Shown one piece after another: positions 17,304 through 25,067 of a stretch of 51,978 nt of DNA. Below the pieces are notes generated by a model. It searched no databases. It saw nothing but the letters and a program-made list of their open reading frames with translations, and was not told the origin of the DNA. Position numbers and translations under genes: made by a program. The stretch is from Spirochaetales bacterium (GTDB taxonomy: Bacteria > Spirochaetota > Spirochaetia > UBA9216), in NCBI GenBank assembly GCA_016342585.1, contig JAEINK010000035.1, positions 1 through 51,978 on the forward strand. The letters run 5' to 3'. The first letter of the stretch is position 1; the number at the start of each line of letters is the position of its first letter.

Positions 17304-17345
17304 GGCTGCCTGAGGATTGTTTTATCCTTCAGCAGCCATTTTTTT
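17304..17345 (+). terminator. Rho-independent terminator after the lipoprotein gene
   Basis: A strong hairpin has outer stem GGCTGC/GCAGCC and inner stem GAGGAT/ATCCTT, followed by ATTTTTTT. It lies between convergent genes and may also stop minus-strand transcripts. Confidence 0.75.
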
Positions 17346-18216
17346 ATACAACTCCTTCAGCCCTCTCCTTGAGGTAACTGCTGAAGGAAATCTTGGGAAT
17401 ACCCCTGGCCGGTTTTGCCTTAACGGTCATCTCTTCTCCGGTGCCCGGGTGCCTTACGACTCTTGGTTTCTGAGCCTCTCTTGTTTTTATGGAGAATTTA
17501 CCAAGCTTCCCGAAGGGAACCGACTCGCCCATGATCATCCCTGTTTCTATCAATGTCATAAAATCGTCAATAATCAGCCTGGCTTCCTGTCCTGTTAATC
17601 CATGTTTTTTAGCGAGAAAACGGGTCATTGACTTCATTGTAAACTGATCGGGTATCGAACCACTCTCTATCTGCAAACTCTGGTTGTACTTCATAAAACC
17701 AGCTGTAATAAAAATGGCACTTTCCCTGATCCTTTTATCCTGCTCCTCTTCATCTAAATTCTCAGGACAGACGGCAATCAGGTAGGCGGGGCTTGTGGTC
17801 TGCACCTTTGAATTTTCCATTTTGACAGGTTGACCGGTGGAGAGAGGGGCCGCAAGACTTGCCCCTTTGCCGGTGATTATATCCGGAACTTCGGTCCGTA
17901 TTTTTATACTTGAGTACTCTATCCATCTGCCAAAATTGATATTGGTGTTTGTTAGAAAGACCGGACCGACACAGAGGATTGAACCCGAATAGGAGAGTAT
18001 CATCATTCCCCGGGTATCCTTATGTGAAATCGAGTCCACGAATTCAAGTTTAACAGCCTCTATCTGTTTCCGGAAAAGGTCCTCTTTTTGTTTCCAAACG
18101 TCCACCAGAGTCTGAATAAACTCTTTGTCATCCTGTTTTTTTTGATCTCCAGCGATTGCCATAAGGTGTTTCTGTATGGCCGTGGGTAATTCTTGCAGGT
18201 CTGTTTTGGTTTTCAT
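17344..18216 (-). CDS. Unknown signalling-like domain fused to an HU-type DNA-binding domain
   Basis: A 290-aa protein in two parts. Residues 1-180 are an unrecognised domain: a helical start, then DTRGMMILSYSGSILCVGP, then a mixed region with SPAYLIAVC. It is clearly homologous to the whole of the 179-aa protein encoded divergently at 18363. Residues 190-286 are an HU/IHF-type domain: a helical dimerisation part (KKHGLTGQEARLIIDDF), FGKLGKFSIKTR, and the DNA-binding arm with RHPGTGEE in place of the classical RNPxTGE. The arrangement suggests a DNA-binding output of the kinase/phosphatase locus beside it. AGGAG precedes the ATG at a usual distance. I know no described protein with this fusion, but have not searched. 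Confidence 0.7.
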   Translation of the reverse strand: MKTKTDLQELPTAIQKHLMAIAGDQKKQDDKEFIQTLVDVWKQKEDLFRKQIEAVKLEFVDSISHKDTRGMMILSYSGSILCVGPVFLTNTNINFGRWIEYSSIKIRTEVPDIITGKGASLAAPLSTGQPVKMENSKVQTTSPAYLIAVCPENLDEEEQDKRIRESAIFITAGFMKYNQSLQIESGSIPDQFTMKSMTRFLAKKHGLTGQEARLIIDDFMTLIETGMIMGESVPFGKLGKFSIKTREAQKPRVVRHPGTGEEMTVKAKPARGIPKISFSSYLKERAEGVV

Positions 18217-18362
18217 TTTCAGTCTCTCCTGATAATAAAATAGAGCCTTTTATAGTTAAAAACAATGTTTTTTCAAAAAAACACGGAAAAAATGGTTTTT
18301 ATTTGAAAGTGGGTGTAGGATTATGTTCGCAGCTGCTATAAAATCTATATTGGAGTGTAACA

Positions 18363-18902
18363 ATGGGTGAAAAATTCAATAGTCTTGTACCTGAAGTACA
18401 GGCACACATAAAATCGCTGGTAAGAACAGCAAAACTTGAAGATAATGATGAATCTCTGGAAATGCTTTCGGATGGCTGGCTTGAAAAACAGCAGTCCTTC
18501 TTTGAGCAGACCAAACAGCGTGAAATGGAAGAGGTTGATAATTTTAATATTGATGATCTTCGAGGAGCTCTGGTTATGACCTACTCTGGTTCCCTGATAA
18601 ATATCGGTCCTGAACAGAATGACCTGAGATCGGTTCTGTATTACAGCATCGGTCTTCGAAACGATGTCCCCGAGTCTGCCGAGGAGGACTCTTCTGTGCT
18701 GGGAAGCAGTATTGAAAAGGGGAAAACCGTTATATTTGAGAAGGGGCCGATTGCAAAGAGCAGTCCGGTTTTGTCTATTGCTGTATTTAAAGAGGAGATG
18801 GCGCTCGAACCGGAAAAGGAAGAGGAGCTCCTTGAAGAGGTTACTATGATCATTGCACAGGACTTTGCGTCTATAAATAAAACAACAATACTGGAAGATT
18901 AG
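18363..18902 (+). CDS. Stand-alone copy of the unknown domain; first gene of kinase/phosphatase operon
   Basis: A 179-aa acidic protein without signal peptide or membrane segment. It aligns along its length with residues 1-180 of the HU-fusion protein. Shared anchors are DLRGALVMTYSGSLINIGP against DTRGMMILSYSGSILCVGP, LRNDVPE against IRTEVPD, and SSPVLSIAVF against TSPAYLIAVC. No known family is recognisable; the central strands could be a PAS-, GAF- or roadblock-like fold. GGAG lies before the ATG. The phosphatase gene follows 9 bp later. I infer an adaptor, sensor or substrate within the phosphorylation module. Confidence 0.7.
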   Translation: MGEKFNSLVPEVQAHIKSLVRTAKLEDNDESLEMLSDGWLEKQQSFFEQTKQREMEEVDNFNIDDLRGALVMTYSGSLINIGPEQNDLRSVLYYSIGLRNDVPESAEEDSSVLGSSIEKGKTVIFEKGPIAKSSPVLSIAVFKEEMALEPEKEEELLEEVTMIIAQDFASINKTTILED

Positions 18903-18911
18903 AGGTTTCAA

Positions 18912-19940
18912 TTGAATAAAAACGGTGAATCCTGGCTGGGTATCCTGGGGCGTCTTGAGTCTGTACTTGAGCGCCGGGGTATCCCCGAATTATCAGAATT
19001 GCTTGAAGTACTAAGTGGCGGGATAGAAACTCTGCGGAATGAAAACCCTGTCATACGGCCGGTCGGTCGTGGCGGGTCTCCGGGTGGTCTGGTCAGGTTA
19101 AAGCCGGAATGTTATTACGTGATAATACCGGATCTTCACGGCCGGCTCGATTTCTTTCATGGAGTGATGAGCTGGACCGGATTTTCCGGCCAGCCTGTGA
19201 TTTCCGATATGGCGGAAGGCCGGGCTCAGGTTATCTGTGTGGGGGATGCCTTTCATAGTGAATCCCGGGGACGTGAGCGTTGGCAGAAAGCTTTGAAGGA
19301 GTATGCCGGAGGCTTCAAAAAGCACAAGCATATGGATAGAGAAATGGGTGAAAACCTGGGACTTCTTGAGATGATTAACCTTGTAAAAATCACCTATCCC
19401 GAACATTTTCACTTCCTTAAGGGGAATCATGAGAATATCGCCAATGAAAAGGGAGAAGGAAACTTTCCTTTTCGTAAGTATGCCTATGAAGGGGAGATGG
19501 TTAAACATTGGGTTCAGAACATTCTTGGGATGGAGGCTTTTGATTTGATCTACAGATGGGAGAAGGCTTTACCCCTTCTGGCCGAAGGAGCCGGATTTCT
19601 GGTTACCCACTGTGAGCCTGGCCGGACCCTCACTCCGGCTGAAGTCATAAACTGTTATGAGAATCCGGATGTTATATTCAACCTGACCTGGATCGACAAT
19701 AATCAGGCCGAACCGGGGAGTACTGCCGGAACCCTCAAATCTTTTGGAAAGGATATTCAGACTGGCCGGATTTTCGGTGGTCACCGGCCCGTGAAAGGCT
19801 ATTATGATCTAAGGCAGGATGGTTTGTATGTCCAGATAAATACGCCGAATGAATGGGTCATCGCCGCCTTCGGCAATATTCTTGAGTTTTTGCCGGATAA
19901 AAATATTGTTTGTTTGAAAAAGGAAGGGAACCGTGGCTAA
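18912..19940 (+). CDS. PPP-like metallophosphoesterase (putative Ser/Thr protein phosphatase)
   Basis: A 342-aa calcineurin-like phosphoesterase. The dimetal motifs appear in order: IPDLHGR (residues 72-78), VGDAFH (110-115, where PPP phosphatases have GDxxDRG), LKGNHEN (169-175), VTHCEPG (231-237) and GGHRPV (289-294). The DxHG and GNHE motifs favour a PPP-like protein phosphatase over a nuclease or nucleotidase. The start is a TTG with AGAGG six bases upstream. Its end overlaps the kinase gene by 8 bp, so the two are translationally linked and probably antagonistic. It has no signal peptide and is presumed cytoplasmic. Confidence 0.78.
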   Translation: MNKNGESWLGILGRLESVLERRGIPELSELLEVLSGGIETLRNENPVIRPVGRGGSPGGLVRLKPECYYVIIPDLHGRLDFFHGVMSWTGFSGQPVISDMAEGRAQVICVGDAFHSESRGRERWQKALKEYAGGFKKHKHMDREMGENLGLLEMINLVKITYPEHFHFLKGNHENIANEKGEGNFPFRKYAYEGEMVKHWVQNILGMEAFDLIYRWEKALPLLAEGAGFLVTHCEPGRTLTPAEVINCYENPDVIFNLTWIDNNQAEPGSTAGTLKSFGKDIQTGRIFGGHRPVKGYYDLRQDGLYVQINTPNEWVIAAFGNILEFLPDKNIVCLKKEGNRG

Positions 19941-21507
19941 GATACCGGAACAGATCGATAAATATCAGATAGAAAAGTTGATCGCCACCGGCGGAATGGG
20001 TGCCGTTTTCAAGGGCCTCCATCCTACCCTGGAGCGCTCGGTAATCCTGAAAAAGCTGACCCTTCGGGGGAATACCGGCATTAGAGAACGTTTTAAACGT
20101 GAAGCACGGATCCTCATGGATTTCAGGAATGATAATATTGTGGATGTTCAGGATCACTTTGTTGTTGGTCGAAGCCATTATATTGTCATGGAGTTTGTGG
20201 ATGGACAATCTGTCAAAGAGTTGCTGGATGAACAGAGGTACCTTGATAACTCCACGGCGGCTTATATTATTCTTCATACGGCGAAAGCCCTGGCATATGC
20301 CCATACAAAGGGTGTTGTTCATCGGGATATCAAGCCCGGAAATATACTGATCTCAAGAAATGGAGAGGTTAAACTGGCAGATTTCGGTATCGCTTCGTCA
20401 CGGGATTTGGACCCTGAAGAGGCGGATCTGACAACCGATGGGATGACACTGGGGACGCCGGCCTATATGGCTCCGGAACAGTTTGAGAACTCCCGGACTG
20501 TCGACTACCGGGCAGATATTTATTCGTTGGGGGTTATGTTCTACGAGATGCTTGTGGGCTTAAAACCCTTTCCCGGGGGGTTCTCACCCGAAACCATCAG
20601 ACTTATCCAGAAGGGGAGGTATAAGCACCCCCGGAAGATAAACCCTACAGTCTCGCCGGAATTACAGAAGATAGTTGTCTCTCTCATCCGGCCGCGGCCG
20701 GAATCCCGTTGCAACGATATCGCAGTGATCATCAAAAAGCTGGAAGCCTATCTTGGGAAGTTTAATGAGGATGATGTTCAGGCCAGGGTTTGTGCCCTCG
20801 TAAGGGAGGAGCCTTCTCCCCCCATCCGTCCCAGGAAATACTCAAGCTTAAAACTATATATCGGCAGTGGGATTATTGTTCTTATTCTGGCGGGATTGCT
20901 TACCGGTTATTTGAGTATAACCGGGGGGTATAAAAGGGTCTTTAAACCGGCGGAGTACGGGCAGATTAGACTCCTGGTTGATTCATCCATCGGACGACCT
21001 GTCACCCAGCTTTTCATCGATGATGGCGGGGCAATTCCTCCTGTTGATCGGAAGATTTGGTATTTCCCTTTTAAGGAGGGAAGCCGCAGTCTGGATCTGG
21101 TCCTGCCGGCAGGTAATTACAGAGCCAAAACAACAACCGGTGTGCGGGTGATCTGGTCTTCCTTTGTTGTCGCAGGCTGGGAAGTGGCGGGTAAAACCAC
21201 GGTTGTGCATATTGGCCGGGCCAAAGGGACCATCAGGCCGCTTGAGGTCTCTCTGGATGTTCATGACGCGGAGACTGGCTGGGATCTGATGGCAGTCGCA
21301 GAGCTTGAGGTTTTTAAAGAGGAAAAATTCCAGACCCTGGATGAGGCCGGCGAAATATTATCCGGCCGGATCCACAGGTTCCGCATTTCCGCTCCCGGGT
21401 ATTTAAGTCAGGAGTATAGCCTTAAAATCATCAGTGAAGAGTCGATTCTCCATTTTCAGGTTGATCTCCGACCGGAAATGGGAGCTGAAAAGGTTTTGGA
21501 GAATTAA
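19933..21507 (+). CDS. Transmembrane Ser/Thr protein kinase (PknB-like)
   Basis: A 524-aa kinase with a complete catalytic domain: glycine loop ATGGMGAV (18-25), catalytic Lys40, HRDIKPGN (130-137), DFG (150-152), and activation segment ending in GTPAYMAPE (174-182). One membrane helix (about 307-329) follows, then some 195 extracytoplasmic residues with no PASTA repeats and no family I recognise. GTG start, AGGAAGGGA upstream. It sits between its presumed phosphatase and two membrane proteins with FHA-type domains, which bind phosphothreonine. A membrane receptor kinase is the natural reading. Confidence 0.92.
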   Translation: MAKIPEQIDKYQIEKLIATGGMGAVFKGLHPTLERSVILKKLTLRGNTGIRERFKREARILMDFRNDNIVDVQDHFVVGRSHYIVMEFVDGQSVKELLDEQRYLDNSTAAYIILHTAKALAYAHTKGVVHRDIKPGNILISRNGEVKLADFGIASSRDLDPEEADLTTDGMTLGTPAYMAPEQFENSRTVDYRADIYSLGVMFYEMLVGLKPFPGGFSPETIRLIQKGRYKHPRKINPTVSPELQKIVVSLIRPRPESRCNDIAVIIKKLEAYLGKFNEDDVQARVCALVREEPSPPIRPRKYSSLKLYIGSGIIVLILAGLLTGYLSITGGYKRVFKPAEYGQIRLLVDSSIGRPVTQLFIDDGGAIPPVDRKIWYFPFKEGSRSLDLVLPAGNYRAKTTTGVRVIWSSFVVAGWEVAGKTTVVHIGRAKGTIRPLEVSLDVHDAETGWDLMAVAELEVFKEEKFQTLDEAGEILSGRIHRFRISAPGYLSQEYSLKIISEESILHFQVDLRPEMGAEKVLEN

Positions 21508-21519
21508 GGAAATAATAGA

Positions 21520-22398
21520 ATGACTGGAAACAAGAAAAGAATCATATATTTATTTTTAGGATTATGTGCCGGGCTGACTGGTTTCTCGGCTGTGGAGCTG
21601 CTTTCTGCGGCTGGAGTTGAATCCTATCTCTTCCTGGCGATTACTCAAGGGGCTTCTCTCGGATTGATTTTCGGTTTCATCTTTGGTTTTACCGATGCAA
21701 TCTTTTATAAAGAGTTGAAGCGGGGACTGATCAAAGCGGGGATAGCCGCCGGTCTTGGTGGTCTTACCGCCGCCGCCGCCGTGATCTTCTCTTCCCAGGG
21801 GATGCTCTGGACAGCCAACATCTTCAAGCTGGAGTATGAGCAGACCATGGGGCTCCTCTTTCCATTATGGCGGGGAGTCGGGTGGATGTTTATGGGGATG
21901 TTTATTGGCGCCGTAGATGGGATACAGCGAAAGACCTGGCGAAGGGGAGTGGCCGGGGGGCTGGGCGGTCTGGCAGGAGGCCTGCTTGGCGGTTTGATTT
22001 TTGAGTTCCTTGTACGATTTTTTCCCGAAGCAGCACTAGCAAGAGCCTTCGGTCTTATTGCCATGGGCCTTCTGATTGGCCTTTTTCTCGGGGAGTTTGA
22101 AATCCGTTTCAGTTATGCCCGACTCAGGGTTCTAAACGGTCAGCTCAAGGATAGAGAGTTTTTACTGGTTAAACCAAAGGTTTATTTAGGTGATTCCATC
22201 CATGATGATGTTTACATCCACGGATACAGGAAAATTCTTTCCGGTCTTATTTTGAGGAAAAATAGTGAGATCTATCTTGAACCGGGAGATGAGTCTCCCC
22301 TTCTTTTAAACGATGAACCCGCCGGGATCAGACAGGCCTTGAAGTATCAGGATGTGATCCAGCTTGGTGATGTGAAGCTTCTCTATCTGCCCTTATAA
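21520..22398 (+). CDS. Multi-pass membrane protein with C-terminal FHA-like domain
   Basis: A 292-aa protein. Residues 1-195 contain several hydrophobic, glycine-rich segments (GAVDG, GGLGGLAGGLLGGL), suggesting five or six membrane helices. The C-terminal ~90 residues look like a degenerate FHA fold: a strand-rich region with KVYLGDSIHDDVYI and an ending DVIQLGDVKLLYL, which resembles the GDxIxxGxxxxxF tail of FHA domains. The usual phosphothreonine-contacting residues are not evident. It is in the kinase operon, 12 bp after the kinase and 11 bp before the VWA-FHA gene. Confidence 0.6.
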   Translation: MTGNKKRIIYLFLGLCAGLTGFSAVELLSAAGVESYLFLAITQGASLGLIFGFIFGFTDAIFYKELKRGLIKAGIAAGLGGLTAAAAVIFSSQGMLWTANIFKLEYEQTMGLLFPLWRGVGWMFMGMFIGAVDGIQRKTWRRGVAGGLGGLAGGLLGGLIFEFLVRFFPEAALARAFGLIAMGLLIGLFLGEFEIRFSYARLRVLNGQLKDREFLLVKPKVYLGDSIHDDVYIHGYRKILSGLILRKNSEIYLEPGDESPLLLNDEPAGIRQALKYQDVIQLGDVKLLYLPL

Positions 22399-22409
22399 AG
22401 GAGGTCAAA

Positions 22410-23783
22410 ATGAAAAAGATACTTATTACAGGATTTACACTTTTATTTGTTTTTAATATATGGTCACAGAATATTCAGATTACCCAGGTGGATACAAACG
22501 ACCTGCTTTTCAGGGGAGAGATAAATATCTATTTCTCTCTGACGGGAACAGAGAGCAGGGAGTTATCTGTCGATGATTTTACAGTGATTGAAAAGAGTGA
22601 AGGGGAACTCGATATTGTCGGTCTGAAGAATGAACCGAACAGGGATGCGGGGATAGATTTTATCCTTCTCATAGATAATTCAGGATCCATGTATGAGGAG
22701 CGTTATGAGGGGAGCCGGCGAATTAATCAGGCCAAGCTTGCTCTTGGGTCCTTTCTGGATCAGATTGATGATTCTAAAGACCGGGTAGCCGTATACTCTT
22801 TTAATACCAGGCTTCAGGAGGTCGCTCCTTTCGGGACCGGGATACCGGATATCCACCGATCCCTGTCGGCTATTGAGGAACCTGATACCGGGATGTCCTA
22901 TACGGAACTCTATCACTCCTTGAAAGATATCCCCAAAGCCTTCCCGAAGACCTCCGGGAGACGTGCTGTGATCGTGCTCTCGGATGGCGAAAACTACTCT
23001 CTCTTTGAACATGCGGAAATAAAACATGAGGACTGGGGTGAATCCCTGGTTGATCCGGAAGAAATTGTACTCTCCTATTACGAGGCGGGGATTACCCTGG
23101 ATGGAATAAACCTGTCTGATCAGATGGATGCTAATCTGGCGGAGATCTGCCGTGAGAGTGGCGGGAAATTTCACGATGTTCGGACTACCGAAGCAATAAG
23201 CGGGGTGTATTCTGATATTCGTGAGAAGATTACAAACGAATACCAGATTACTGTGAAAGCTCCTCCCTTGCAGAACCCCAGCGGGGTGATCGAACTTGCA
23301 TATAAGGGGAAGCAGGATAGTCGTATTCTGGTCGTTCCCACCCTCTTCGGAGGGGTTTCCAGGCTGCCTGTTATAATTCCCCTTATAATCCTGATTATTG
23401 GCCTTGCCGGGGTGGGAATCCTCTATTATCTCCCTTTTGAGAAACCGGTAAAGGGTGCCCAGATACAGGCCCTCGATTCAAATATGACTATAGCTCTGAA
23501 TAATGAGGTGACCGTAATTGGAGCCAGTAGAGAGGCTGACTTCACTATGGCCGGTAATCCCGGTATTGAGGCAGAGCACGCAACGATTGTTCATGATGAG
23601 AATGCTGCTACCTTTATTCTAAGCAGTAAAAGGCCTGTGCGGGTTAACAATAAAAAAGTCCGAAAACGGAAACTGACTCCGGGAGATGTGATTCAGATTG
23701 AAGGCAGTACTATTATTTTTGATGCGCCGGAACCCCAAAAGTCTAAAGCGGGTGCTAAGGTTCAAAGTACAAAAGCTACTTAA
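22410..23783 (+). CDS. VWA-FHA membrane protein
   Basis: A 457-aa protein with a signal sequence (residues 1-19), a von Willebrand A domain from about residue 82 with intact MIDAS start (LLIDNSGSM, Asp89-x-Ser91-x-Ser93), a membrane helix (LPVIIPLIILIIGLAGVGIL), and a C-terminal cytoplasmic FHA domain. The FHA domain shows VIGASREADF, EAEHATIVHD, VNNKKV and LTPGDVIQIEGSTIIFD. The topology places VWA outside and FHA inside, so the protein could link an external ligand to phosphothreonine binding. Strong ribosome site (AAAGGAGG). It is the last gene of the operon and overlaps the convergent kinase-like gene by 4 bp. Confidence 0.85.
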   Translation: MKKILITGFTLLFVFNIWSQNIQITQVDTNDLLFRGEINIYFSLTGTESRELSVDDFTVIEKSEGELDIVGLKNEPNRDAGIDFILLIDNSGSMYEERYEGSRRINQAKLALGSFLDQIDDSKDRVAVYSFNTRLQEVAPFGTGIPDIHRSLSAIEEPDTGMSYTELYHSLKDIPKAFPKTSGRRAVIVLSDGENYSLFEHAEIKHEDWGESLVDPEEIVLSYYEAGITLDGINLSDQMDANLAEICRESGGKFHDVRTTEAISGVYSDIREKITNEYQITVKAPPLQNPSGVIELAYKGKQDSRILVVPTLFGGVSRLPVIIPLIILIIGLAGVGILYYLPFEKPVKGAQIQALDSNMTIALNNEVTVIGASREADFTMAGNPGIEAEHATIVHDENAATFILSSKRPVRVNNKKVRKRKLTPGDVIQIEGSTIIFDAPEPQKSKAGAKVQSTKAT

Positions 23784-24601
23784 AGGTAATTTAGCATCAA
23801 GCCGATGGCCTGGTTTTTATAGCTGTCACCAAAAAGATTCAGATGGTTTAGAATGTGATAAAGTTTGTACAGATCGAGCCTGCTCCGCCAACCTTCCTTG
23901 AGGGGGTAGGTTTCATTATAGGAACGATAAAATTCTTCGGTAAATCCTCCGAAAAGGAGAGTCATTGCCAGCTCAAGTTCCCTGTGACCACGGTATGCTG
24001 CAGGATCTATCAGCACGGGTTGGCCTTTTTCATCGGCTATGACATTTCCCGCCCAGAGATCCCCGTGAATCAGACAGGGGGCTTCCTTTGAACTCTCAAG
24101 GAGATCGGGAATCCTCTTTCGTAATTTATTATAGGTTTCCCGGACCTTTATATCTCCGGAAAGTTCTACCTGAAAATCGAGACGGTTTTCAATGTAGAAC
24201 TCTATCCAACTCTTTTTAAAGGTATTTTTCTGTTCTGTTGAACCAATGTAGTTATCCTCGTAGAACCCGAATTCGGTATTGGTATCGGAGGTTTTGCGAT
24301 GAAGCCGTGCAAGTTCGTTTCCCAGCCGGTTTTGAAAATCCCGGGATTTTGCTGCCTGAGGAATATAGTTCAGCACCAGAAAGTGGTCATTATATTTGAT
24401 GACTGCCGGAACCGAAATACTCCTTGATTCAGAAAGGGCATTTATACCGTGAGCCTCTTTTGGGGCCACACCGGCTTTGGAATAATGTTTTATAAAATAA
24501 TCGCAGGTTTTCGTTTTTACCCTTGCGCAGCTACCTATGCAACCTCCGGAAAGGGGCGTCGTTGAAATAATATTATCATTTATTAATGAGCTATAGTCCA
24601 T
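23780..24601 (-). CDS. Fructosamine kinase family protein
   Basis: A 273-aa member of the fructosamine/ketosamine-3-kinase family, which phosphorylates sugars attached to amines so that the adduct falls apart (protein deglycation). The APH-like catalytic loop is LIHGDLWAGNVI, followed by the metal-binding LIDPAAYRGHRELELAM. N-terminal lysine and ATP-loop features are weaker. It overlaps the upstream phosphatase gene by 11 bp; pairing of fructosamine kinase with a low-molecular-weight phosphatase is common in bacteria. AAGGA precedes the ATG. Confidence 0.88.
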   Translation of the reverse strand: MDYSSLINDNIISTTPLSGGCIGSCARVKTKTCDYFIKHYSKAGVAPKEAHGINALSESRSISVPAVIKYNDHFLVLNYIPQAAKSRDFQNRLGNELARLHRKTSDTNTEFGFYEDNYIGSTEQKNTFKKSWIEFYIENRLDFQVELSGDIKVRETYNKLRKRIPDLLESSKEAPCLIHGDLWAGNVIADEKGQPVLIDPAAYRGHRELELAMTLLFGGFTEEFYRSYNETYPLKEGWRSRLDLYKLYHILNHLNLFGDSYKNQAIGLMLNYL

Positions 24602-25067
24602 TGTTCCTTTTTAATTCCATAAGGAGCCCCCGGCAGCTGTCGTCCAGTATATTCAGAACCTCTTCGAATCCGGAATCTCCCCCATAATATGGATCGGGAA
24701 CATCTATTTTCTGATATCCGGAAGAAAAATCGGTCATCATTTTTACCTTCTCATAATATTCACCATGTCGGTCCATGGCAGTAATGTCCCTGTAGTTACT
24801 CTTGTCCATGGCGATAATAATATCAAACTCTTTAAAGTCATCTTTTCGGAATTGCCGTGAACGGGAAGTCAGTCGGATATTTCTTTTGGCGGCATGCTTA
24901 CGCATCCTGCTGTCGGCGGCCTCTCCCACATGGTAGGCTGATGTTCCTGCGGAATCGATAAAGAAGTTCTCCTCCAACCCCTCCTCTTCAACAAGGGCTT
25001 TAAAAACGCCTTCACCGGAAGGACTGCGGCAGATATTTCCAAGACAGACAAACAATATATTAATCAT
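24591..25067 (-). CDS. Low-molecular-weight protein-tyrosine phosphatase
   Basis: A 158-aa cytoplasmic phosphatase with the P-loop VCLGNICRSP at residues 6-15 (catalytic Cys7, Arg13) and the general-acid loop VPDPYYGG. The length is typical. In this setting it may hydrolyse a sugar phosphate from deglycation rather than phosphotyrosine. No Shine-Dalgarno is visible. TATAAA lies exactly 6 nt before the ATG, suggesting a leaderless transcript. Confidence 0.92.
   Translation of the reverse strand: MINILFVCLGNICRSPSGEGVFKALVEEEGLEENFFIDSAGTSAYHVGEAADSRMRKHAAKRNIRLTSRSRQFRKDDFKEFDIIIAMDKSNYRDITAMDRHGEYYEKVKMMTDFSSGYQKIDVPDPYYGGDSGFEEVLNILDDSCRGLLMELKRNNGL

Follow-up and report, generated by a model that had tools for sequence, protein, structure and literature searches.

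A conserved spirochaete operon that may connect a membrane Ser/Thr kinase and phosphatase to an HU-type DNA-binding protein

INTRODUCTION

Can a bacterial kinase and phosphatase pair act on the chromosome through a nucleoid-like protein encoded next to them? This question is raised by a locus in contig JAEINK010000035.1 of a Spirochaetales bacterium, of which we analyzed a stretch of 51,978 nucleotides (hereafter, the window). There, a phosphorylation operon stands divergent from a gene whose product joins the domain encoded by the first operon gene, here called DOM, to an HU-type domain (DOM-HU). The initial annotation interpreted this layout as a relay in which an envelope signal reaches an HU-like protein by phosphorylation. 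We found no description of such a module in the open-licence literature, searched by title and abstract opening.

RESULTS

The operon and the divergent DOM-HU gene recur across the spirochaete phylum

The operon lies on the forward strand and comprises five tightly spaced genes (gaps of 9, -8, 12, and 11 bp by ORF coordinates). In order, these encode an acidic stand-alone DOM protein (18363-18902, 179 aa), a predicted PPP-like metallophosphatase (18912-19940, TTG start, 342 aa), a membrane Ser/Thr kinase of the Hanks type (19933-21507, GTG start, 524 aa), a multi-pass membrane protein whose FHA-like tail is degenerate (21520-22398, 292 aa), and a protein in which a VWA domain is followed by one TM-like stretch and a C-terminal degenerate FHA domain (22410-23783, 457 aa). 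DOM-HU is encoded on the reverse strand (17344-18216, 290 aa), with DOM at about residues 1-180 and the HU/IHF-type DNA-binding domain at about 190-290. The 146 bp between the DOM-HU and operon starts (18217..18362) were considered as the site of a clear promoter, a candidate that we rejected given only 9-of-12 promoter-like matches there.

In a phylum sample of 392 genomes, DOM was found in 46, and in 38 of these, spanning 18 family labels, it immediately precedes the phosphatase and/or kinase gene (36 genomes in one count, plus G293 and G166 from other searches). The same holds for 60 of 79 named loci, drawn from the best 80 of 91; this set overlaps the phylum sample, so that the two counts are not additive. 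Cultured carriers include Alkalispirochaeta alkalica DSM 8900 and Salinispira pacifica. Whether DOM occurs mostly at kinase loci or away from them had been fixed beforehand as a point on which the proposal would turn, and it is found mostly at kinase loci. DOM-HU stands divergent beside the operon in 19 of the 38 operon genomes and in 51 of the 79 named loci (again from the best 80 of 91), in agreement with the expectation that the fusion gene would be conserved there in relatives. Gene maps were drawn with a simple ORF picker. Since the arrangement recurs across the phylum, which chance would not produce, the five-gene operon and its divergent neighbor are real and conserved, as initially annotated from the window and now seen in the ORFs, the Pfam matches, and the relatives. 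In addition, distances of the HU, DOM, phosphatase, and kinase proteins correlate with one another (r of 0.74-0.84) over 50 of 64 loci, near-duplicates having been removed.

The linkage has exceptions. Of the 38 operon genomes, 7 encode DOM-HU at a distance from the operon and 10 yielded no DOM-HU, several assemblies being incomplete. Therefore, the HU protein cannot be the sole output of the operon. Likewise, no phosphatase gene lies between DOM and the kinase in genome G023 and in nine named-locus maps.

DOM is shared by the first operon gene and an HU fusion

The stand-alone DOM protein has no match in Pfam (E ≤ 1), NCBIfam, or PADLOC. Its composition is acidic (17 K+R vs 37 D+E), and its structure model is confident (pLDDT 91); comparison of this model with the PDB gave no clear fold match, which does not in itself prove a new fold. 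The stand-alone protein is 28% identical to the N-terminal part of DOM-HU (E = 3.9e-17), and the alignment contains invariant residues common to both, which bears out the earlier reading that one domain is shared by the two genes.

The C-terminal half of DOM-HU matches Pfam PF00216 (5.1e-14, 52.7 bits against a cut-off of 22.4), as anticipated for a fusion to an HU-type domain. It carries the DNA-binding arm and the arm proline of the HU fold, and the arm is conserved. We therefore classify this half as a member of the HU/IHF superfamily with predicted DNA-binding activity. A tree was built from 170 distinct rows, for which DOM-HU and long DOM proteins were trimmed to their first 200 aa; in it, the DOM portions of DOM-HU cluster as a single group (71 rows, support 99). 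The tree label DOM_helical was assigned from length and nothing else, so that it covers both start-site variants and a true C-terminal extension. In one protein search, the query alignment (A3) included HU fusions, and accordingly all of the matches listed (120 of 297) carry an HU domain. The genome from which the window derives also encodes an ordinary HU, on contig C92. Stand-alone HU paralogs were considered as operon partners and rejected, as maps of 17 such loci lack the operon genes. Separately, one stand-alone HU paralog was seen near the operon in genome G174.

The kinase has the conserved residues of its family and the predicted phosphatase is probably diverged

The kinase matches Pfam Pkinase (PF00069; 2.9e-50, 171.6 bits, above cut-off) and has the catalytic lysine, HRD and DFG motifs, and family score of a Hanks-type Ser/Thr kinase. 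Specifically, K40, H130-R131-D132, N137, D150-F151-G152, T172, and T175 are conserved in at least 85% of 37 kinase rows. A simple hydropathy scan gives one TM-like stretch (304-333) with a C-terminal part beyond it. This layout of a cytosolic kinase domain, one TM stretch, and an outside part resembles that of the PknB/PASTA kinases; unlike those, the operon kinase matches no PASTA family in Pfam and reaches 248 bits against the NCBIfam PknB_PASTA cut-off of 450, so that its description as a kinase without PASTA repeats stands. No other Pkinase match occurs in 11 of the 25 operon genomes that were searched; here and for FHA domains below, the genome searches covered a hand-picked 25 of the 38.

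PPP enzymes bind their metal ions through a motif set of GDxH, GD, GNHE, and two later histidines. All of these are present in the product of the second operon gene and its relatives (D74, H76, D112, N172, H173, H233, and H291 in 56/56). The protein has no Pfam match at E ≤ 1, and a profile search of the PDB brought up PPP enzymes alone, with weak matches (E of 0.003 at best, over about 30 residues). These results suggest a diverged, PPP-like metallophosphatase.

The operon FHA folds mostly lack the pocket residues that small FHA proteins retain

The initial annotation assigned phosphothreonine binding to the FHA domains of the operon, a role that their sequences argue against. The tail of the 292-aa protein (203-287), which follows TM-like stretches between residues 7 and 197 (simple hydropathy scan), has only a Yop-YscD_cpl match in Pfam, below cut-off (E = 0.012). 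The 457-aa protein matches VWA_2 (1.3e-12) and FHA (8.2e-7), both above the Pfam cut-off, and has a single internal TM-like stretch (306-344, hydropathy scan), with the VWA domain predicted to lie outside. Among relatives of the VWA-FHA protein, both the pocket arginine and the pocket serine are absent (each 0/33), and among those of the membrane FHA protein they occur in 2/31 and 8/31, respectively. Because these residues are mostly missing, we rejected the operon FHA domains as phosphothreonine readers, and both folds are probably structural. The two membrane FHA genes are fused into one in 4 of the 38 operon genomes. The map label MFHA, which derived from weak profile matches, also fell on stand-alone FHA proteins, and a separate profile was added later.

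A likelier phosphothreonine reader, judging from its pocket residues, is a separate small FHA protein. In the window's genome, its gene lies on contig C117, unlinked to the operon; relatives of this protein (52-55% identical) are encoded directly behind DOM-HU in two genomes, and 11 of the 38 operon genomes have a small FHA gene next to DOM-HU or DOM. The pocket Arg, Ser, and Asn are intact in 25 of 25 such proteins, the Arg having been used to place the rows, and the C117 copy also has all three. An acidic-(x)-Thr motif precedes the FHA domain in 39 of 49 small FHA proteins, compared with a shuffle mean of 9.7 and a highest value of 20, the rows being related; in this count, a wrong stretch was scored for row L224_7, and L099_27 was missed for the same reason, the two errors running in opposite directions, although both rows do carry the motif.

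These features are consistent with a different explanation of the locus, in which the kinase has the small FHA protein as its real target and its output, working as a GarA/OdhI-like switch with perhaps a metabolic role, and DOM is a side branch. Indeed, in family f3, FHA, phosphatase, and kinase genes occur together without DOM in 8 of 8 loci fetched. Against this, DOM is the first operon gene and co-inherits with the kinase, and 4 of the 25 operon genomes searched have no Pfam FHA match, including the 100% complete G374 of the window's own family. In a fifth of the 25, G370, the sole FHA match is the operon's own degenerate domain. As these five genomes show, a small FHA reader is not essential. 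A separate genome-wide FHA search did not list the window's own degenerate FHA domains and can therefore miss domains of this kind. We consider this explanation improbable. In 7 of the 79 named loci (from the best 80 of 91), DOM is divergent from an FHA-LuxR gene.

DISCUSSION

We propose, at roughly even confidence, that these genes, conserved among spirochaetes, work as one module: a Ser/Thr kinase-family membrane protein and the predicted PPP phosphatase that opposes it would set the state of DOM proteins, one of them fused to HU, and an envelope signal would thereby reach the chromosome, altering its structure or gene expression. In this mechanism, the ectodomain of the VWA protein, of the kinase, or of both would sense the envelope, and the two membrane FHA proteins would scaffold the kinase instead of reading phosphothreonine. 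The acidic stand-alone DOM and DOM-HU may exchange partners through their shared domain, a step suggested by that sharing and by the charge difference. The kinase and phosphatase would thereby set the partner of DOM-HU and hence its DNA binding, the signal running from kinase through DOM to HU. In many genomes, the small FHA protein, with its acidic-Thr N-terminal motif in a GarA/OdhI-like layout, would probably act as the phosphothreonine reader, and at some loci the neighbor of DOM is instead an FHA-LuxR regulator.

A bolder form of this proposal is possible but distinctly more tentative. DOM may be a new spirochaete signaling domain with a fold not among the solved structures, whose invariant K42, S75, S77, R99, and S134 would fit binding to a phosphorylated partner. 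It would then link two enzymes, a Hanks kinase and a diverged PPP phosphatase, with the chromosome by either of two alternative outputs, the HU nucleoid protein or an FHA-LuxR regulator, in a dedicated kinase-to-nucleoid pathway of an undescribed kind.

The strongest competing explanation, which we nevertheless regard as unlikely, is that the envelope is the main site of action of the operon, in the manner of type VI secretion system (T6SS) threonine phosphorylation: the kinase and phosphatase, together with an FHA scaffold, would switch a membrane machine, and DOM-HU would serve only as a local transcriptional regulator. A membrane location is predicted for three of the five operon proteins, and the VWA domain of one of them is predicted to lie outside; the divergent position of DOM-HU is the usual one for a local regulator; and 17 of the 38 operon genomes either lack DOM-HU or have it unlinked to the operon. 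However, DOM-HU persists where it is unlinked to the operon, DOM pairs with FHA-LuxR away from the operon, and no other machine gene recurs beside the operon in the maps, whose flanks were not annotated gene by gene. The T6SS pathway itself was rejected, as a search of the window's genome for the sheath family VipB gave no match, consistent with the lack of T6SS genes noted initially. PppA of that pathway is a PP2C-type enzyme, whereas the phosphatase here is PPP-like. The pathway (PpkA, PppA, Fha, and TagF) is similar in bringing a kinase, a phosphatase, and an FHA protein together at the membrane, and DOM and the HU fusion have no counterpart among the components outlined in PMC10482370.

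An anti-phage defense system around the Ser/Thr kinase is very improbable: the kinase does match the PADLOC models PD-T4-6 (1.4e-74) and mad6 (2.4e-72), but kinase models match one another broadly, PADLOC matches none of the other five proteins, NCBIfam MAD6 reaches 153 bits against a cut-off of 460, and fixed gene order with co-inheritance is unlike mobile defense islands, and we rejected both PD-T4-6 and MADS.

Returning to the proposed relay to the chromosome, its parts recall several described systems. In the archaellum regulatory network of Sulfolobus, as outlined in PMC6509490 and PMC7472852, FHA and VWA proteins (ArnA and ArnB), the kinase ArnC, and the phosphatase PP2A control gene expression, and the solved structure of ArnA identifies its FHA domain as a phospho-reader. 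The comparison is one of workings only: both operon FHA folds here lack the pocket, the kinase and VWA protein are predicted to be membrane-bound, and DOM and the HU fusion are added. The self-binding FHA proteins GarA/OdhI and DgcB (PMC6733907; PMC2784874) are small and carry a tail Thr motif before the FHA domain; this likeness applies only to the separate C117 gene, for which self-binding is putative, and not to the operon FHA folds. Finally, phosphorylation of Deinococcus DrHU at Thr37 (PMC9900698) illustrates HU phosphorylation as a means to alter DNA binding; unlike DrHU, the HU domain here is fused to a domain that is encoded in a kinase operon.

If the proposal is correct, many spirochaetes would have a kinase system that alters nucleoid structure or transcription according to the state of the envelope, acting through a domain without a match in the family libraries searched (Pfam, NCBIfam, and PADLOC). 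Since the kinase, its opposing phosphatase, and the HU target are often neighbors, and the kinase is in many of the genomes searched the sole Pkinase match, kinase control of an HU-type protein would become genetically testable. It would also give a concrete function to seek in so far uncharacterized spirochaete genes.

A compact locus of six genes, two of which share one domain

ORF calling and Pfam searches placed six genes at 17344-23783, with the composition first described. Five lie on one strand in the order DOM (an undescribed domain), phosphatase-like protein, membrane kinase, multi-pass membrane protein carrying an FHA-like tail, and VWA-TM-FHA protein; successive genes are spaced 9, -8, 12, and 11 bp apart. 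Divergent from them, across 146 bp, is DOM-HU, whose first ~180 residues are the same domain as DOM (E=3.9e-17, plus alignment), fused to an HU-type DNA-binding domain. The tight operon and divergent fusion sharing DOM, as claimed in the initial annotation, are thus borne out. Between DOM-HU and the upstream gene, an inverted repeat followed by a T run (17304-17346, found by eye) looks like a terminator and is absent from the listing of the sequence scan. At the other flank, a fructosamine kinase family gene overlaps a low-molecular-weight protein tyrosine phosphatase family gene (23780-25067, minus strand), convergent with the operon.

DOM has no family match in Pfam, NCBIfam, or PADLOC. Its AlphaFold2 model (mean pLDDT 91) comprises four helices, the last of them long, and eight strands, with no clear match in the PDB. 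Eleven residues, including K42, S75, S77, R99, and S134, are invariant across 71 rows. Stand-alone DOM is acidic: its net charge over 180 residues has a median of -17 in 88 rows (range -29 to 7). HU-fused DOM is less so (median -4.5; 72 rows, range -20 to 10).

The operon and the HU fusion are conserved in spirochaetes

DOM is present in 46 of the 392 genomes sampled from the phylum. In 38 of these 46, spanning 18 family labels, DOM is immediately followed by the phosphatase and/or kinase in the same orientation; 36 of these operon genomes were read from gene maps, and G293 and G166 (contig edge) from profile-search positions. The eight other DOM-positive genomes are G001, G015, G016 (contig edge), G060, G067, G074, G214 (contig edge), and G380. 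At a threshold of at least 130 bits, the phosphatase occurs in 42/46 DOM-positive versus 54/346 DOM-negative genomes. Of the 38 operon genomes, 19 (including G293) have DOM-HU next to DOM in divergent orientation, two have it at the opposite operon end (G039, G061), and seven have it elsewhere or on another contig (G053, G087, G130, G166, G322, G349, G361). It was not found in ten (G023, G033, G044, G054, G068, G131, G139, G168, G174, G253), where some assemblies are incomplete; in G044, a contig begins with an HU fragment.

A one-genome-per-species collection, which overlaps this sample, yielded 79 distinct loci (the best of 91), 78 of them spirochaete-titled and one titled Neomarinimicrobiota MAG. 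Among these best 79 of 91, DOM is followed by phosphatase or kinase in 60, DOM-HU is divergent in 51, and DOM adjoins an FHA-LuxR gene in 7. DOM therefore sits mostly at kinase loci, and the HU fusion is conserved beside the operon in many relatives, both as the initial annotation had expected. The Neomarinimicrobiota-titled contig (L158, 7.9 kb) holds a complete operon, by either transfer or mis-binning.

In a quick tree, the DOM halves of DOM-HU (71 rows) are set apart by a branch with support 99, and the DOM genes beside FHA-LuxR likewise form their own group with support 99 (7 rows). For HU, DOM, phosphatase, and kinase, the pairwise distances are correlated (r 0.74-0.84 over 50 loci; 0/999 permutations as high), as genes inherited together would show.

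DOM, the enzyme pair, and candidate FHA readers occur in several combinations

In family f3, which is probably Treponema-type, all eight fetched loci have FHA-phosphatase-kinase without DOM. Elsewhere (loci L161, L163, L165, L175, L176, L181, L183, L071), DOM paralogs are divergent from FHA-LuxR (GerE) regulators with no adjacent kinase operon; three of these proteins (L161, L163, L071) were scanned by Pfam. In L078, L083, L085, and P0121, DOM is joined to a different C-terminal extension of ~100 residues. These varied contexts indicate that DOM, the phosphatase-kinase pair, and the putative FHA reader have been combined in several ways, mostly near phosphorylation genes or DNA-binding domains; the exceptions, with neither nearby, are the DOM genes of L049/L130, L068, L078, and L081-L087. 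Stand-alone spirochaete HU proteins (L188-L204), most with Lys/Ala-rich N-terminal tails, strongly match the HU half of DOM-HU, and the 17 loci read show no operon linkage.

The enzymes retain their key residues

Catalytic and activation-loop residues of the kinase are conserved in an alignment of relatives. It is the sole Pkinase match in 11 of the 25 operon genomes searched, a chosen subset of the 38, and the other 14 have 2 to 11 matches; in the window's genome, the sole other match is partial, within a 1718-aa frame. The phosphatase residues D74, H76, D112, N172, H173, H233, and H291 are kept in 56/56 relatives. Since a profile search of the PDB gave weak similarity to solved PPP enzymes and Pfam gave no family match, the PPP assignment is motif-based.

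Another contig of this genome encodes a further member of the phosphatase family, 42% identical (G000 C75:40958-41869; L089:8899-9897), in a 19-kb stretch free of kinase, DOM, and FHA matches. In genome G023, the kinase is immediately followed by a gene for an NgoPII-type restriction endonuclease (L152:9602-10456; 6.6e-106), and the operon there lacks the phosphatase.

A separate small FHA protein is the candidate phosphothreonine reader

Phosphothreonine reading by the operon's own FHA domains, proposed initially, is not supported: the pocket Arg is present in 0/33 VWA-FHA and 2/31 membrane-FHA proteins, and the pocket Ser in 0/33 and 8/31, respectively. Both proteins are likely scaffolds, a role also ascribed to the YscD-type FHA fold.

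An FHA search across the window's genome, which the operon's degenerate domains escape, returned one match, a 124-aa stand-alone canonical FHA protein (contig C117:34215-34586; L001:1348-1722) whose N-terminal tail contains an AETI motif. It is the likely candidate reader. In G334 and G293, the relatives nearest to it in sequence (52-55% identity) are encoded immediately behind DOM-HU, and small FHA genes adjoin DOM-HU or DOM in 11/38 operon genomes. An acidic-(x)-T motif occurs in the pre-FHA tail of 39/49 small FHA proteins (shuffle mean 9.7, highest 20 in 1000 shuffles), where the shuffle is no strict test because the rows are mutually related; the FHA-LuxR linker carries the motif in 6/7. 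A tail motif before FHA is the layout that OdhI, GarA, and DgcB have in common with most small FHA proteins here (excerpt of PMC6733907). Genome G374, 100% complete and in the same family as the window's genome, carries both operon and DOM-HU with no Pfam FHA match, and G256, G130, and G139 have the operon with no such match; the system can thus do without the small FHA protein.

A proposed signalling route

The gene combination is real and conserved, and its gene content, conservation, and residues are the established part of the mechanism. We infer that the kinase would receive an envelope signal by way of its ectodomain or of the VWA protein. Together with the phosphatase, the kinase would control how far DOM proteins are phosphorylated, whether directly or via the small FHA protein, and acidic DOM and DOM-HU may exchange partners through their shared domain. 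The output would lie in the DNA binding of HU or, in loci that have one, of an FHA-LuxR regulator.

Control of HU by phosphorylation has precedent (excerpt of PMC9900698). Overall, the system comes nearest to the archaeal Arn network, alike in logic, not in parts, as excerpts of PMC6509490 and PMC7472852 portray it. No description of this gene combination turned up in the literature searched. Altogether, the module is best placed within Hanks-kinase signalling, with the undescribed domain DOM as its newest part.
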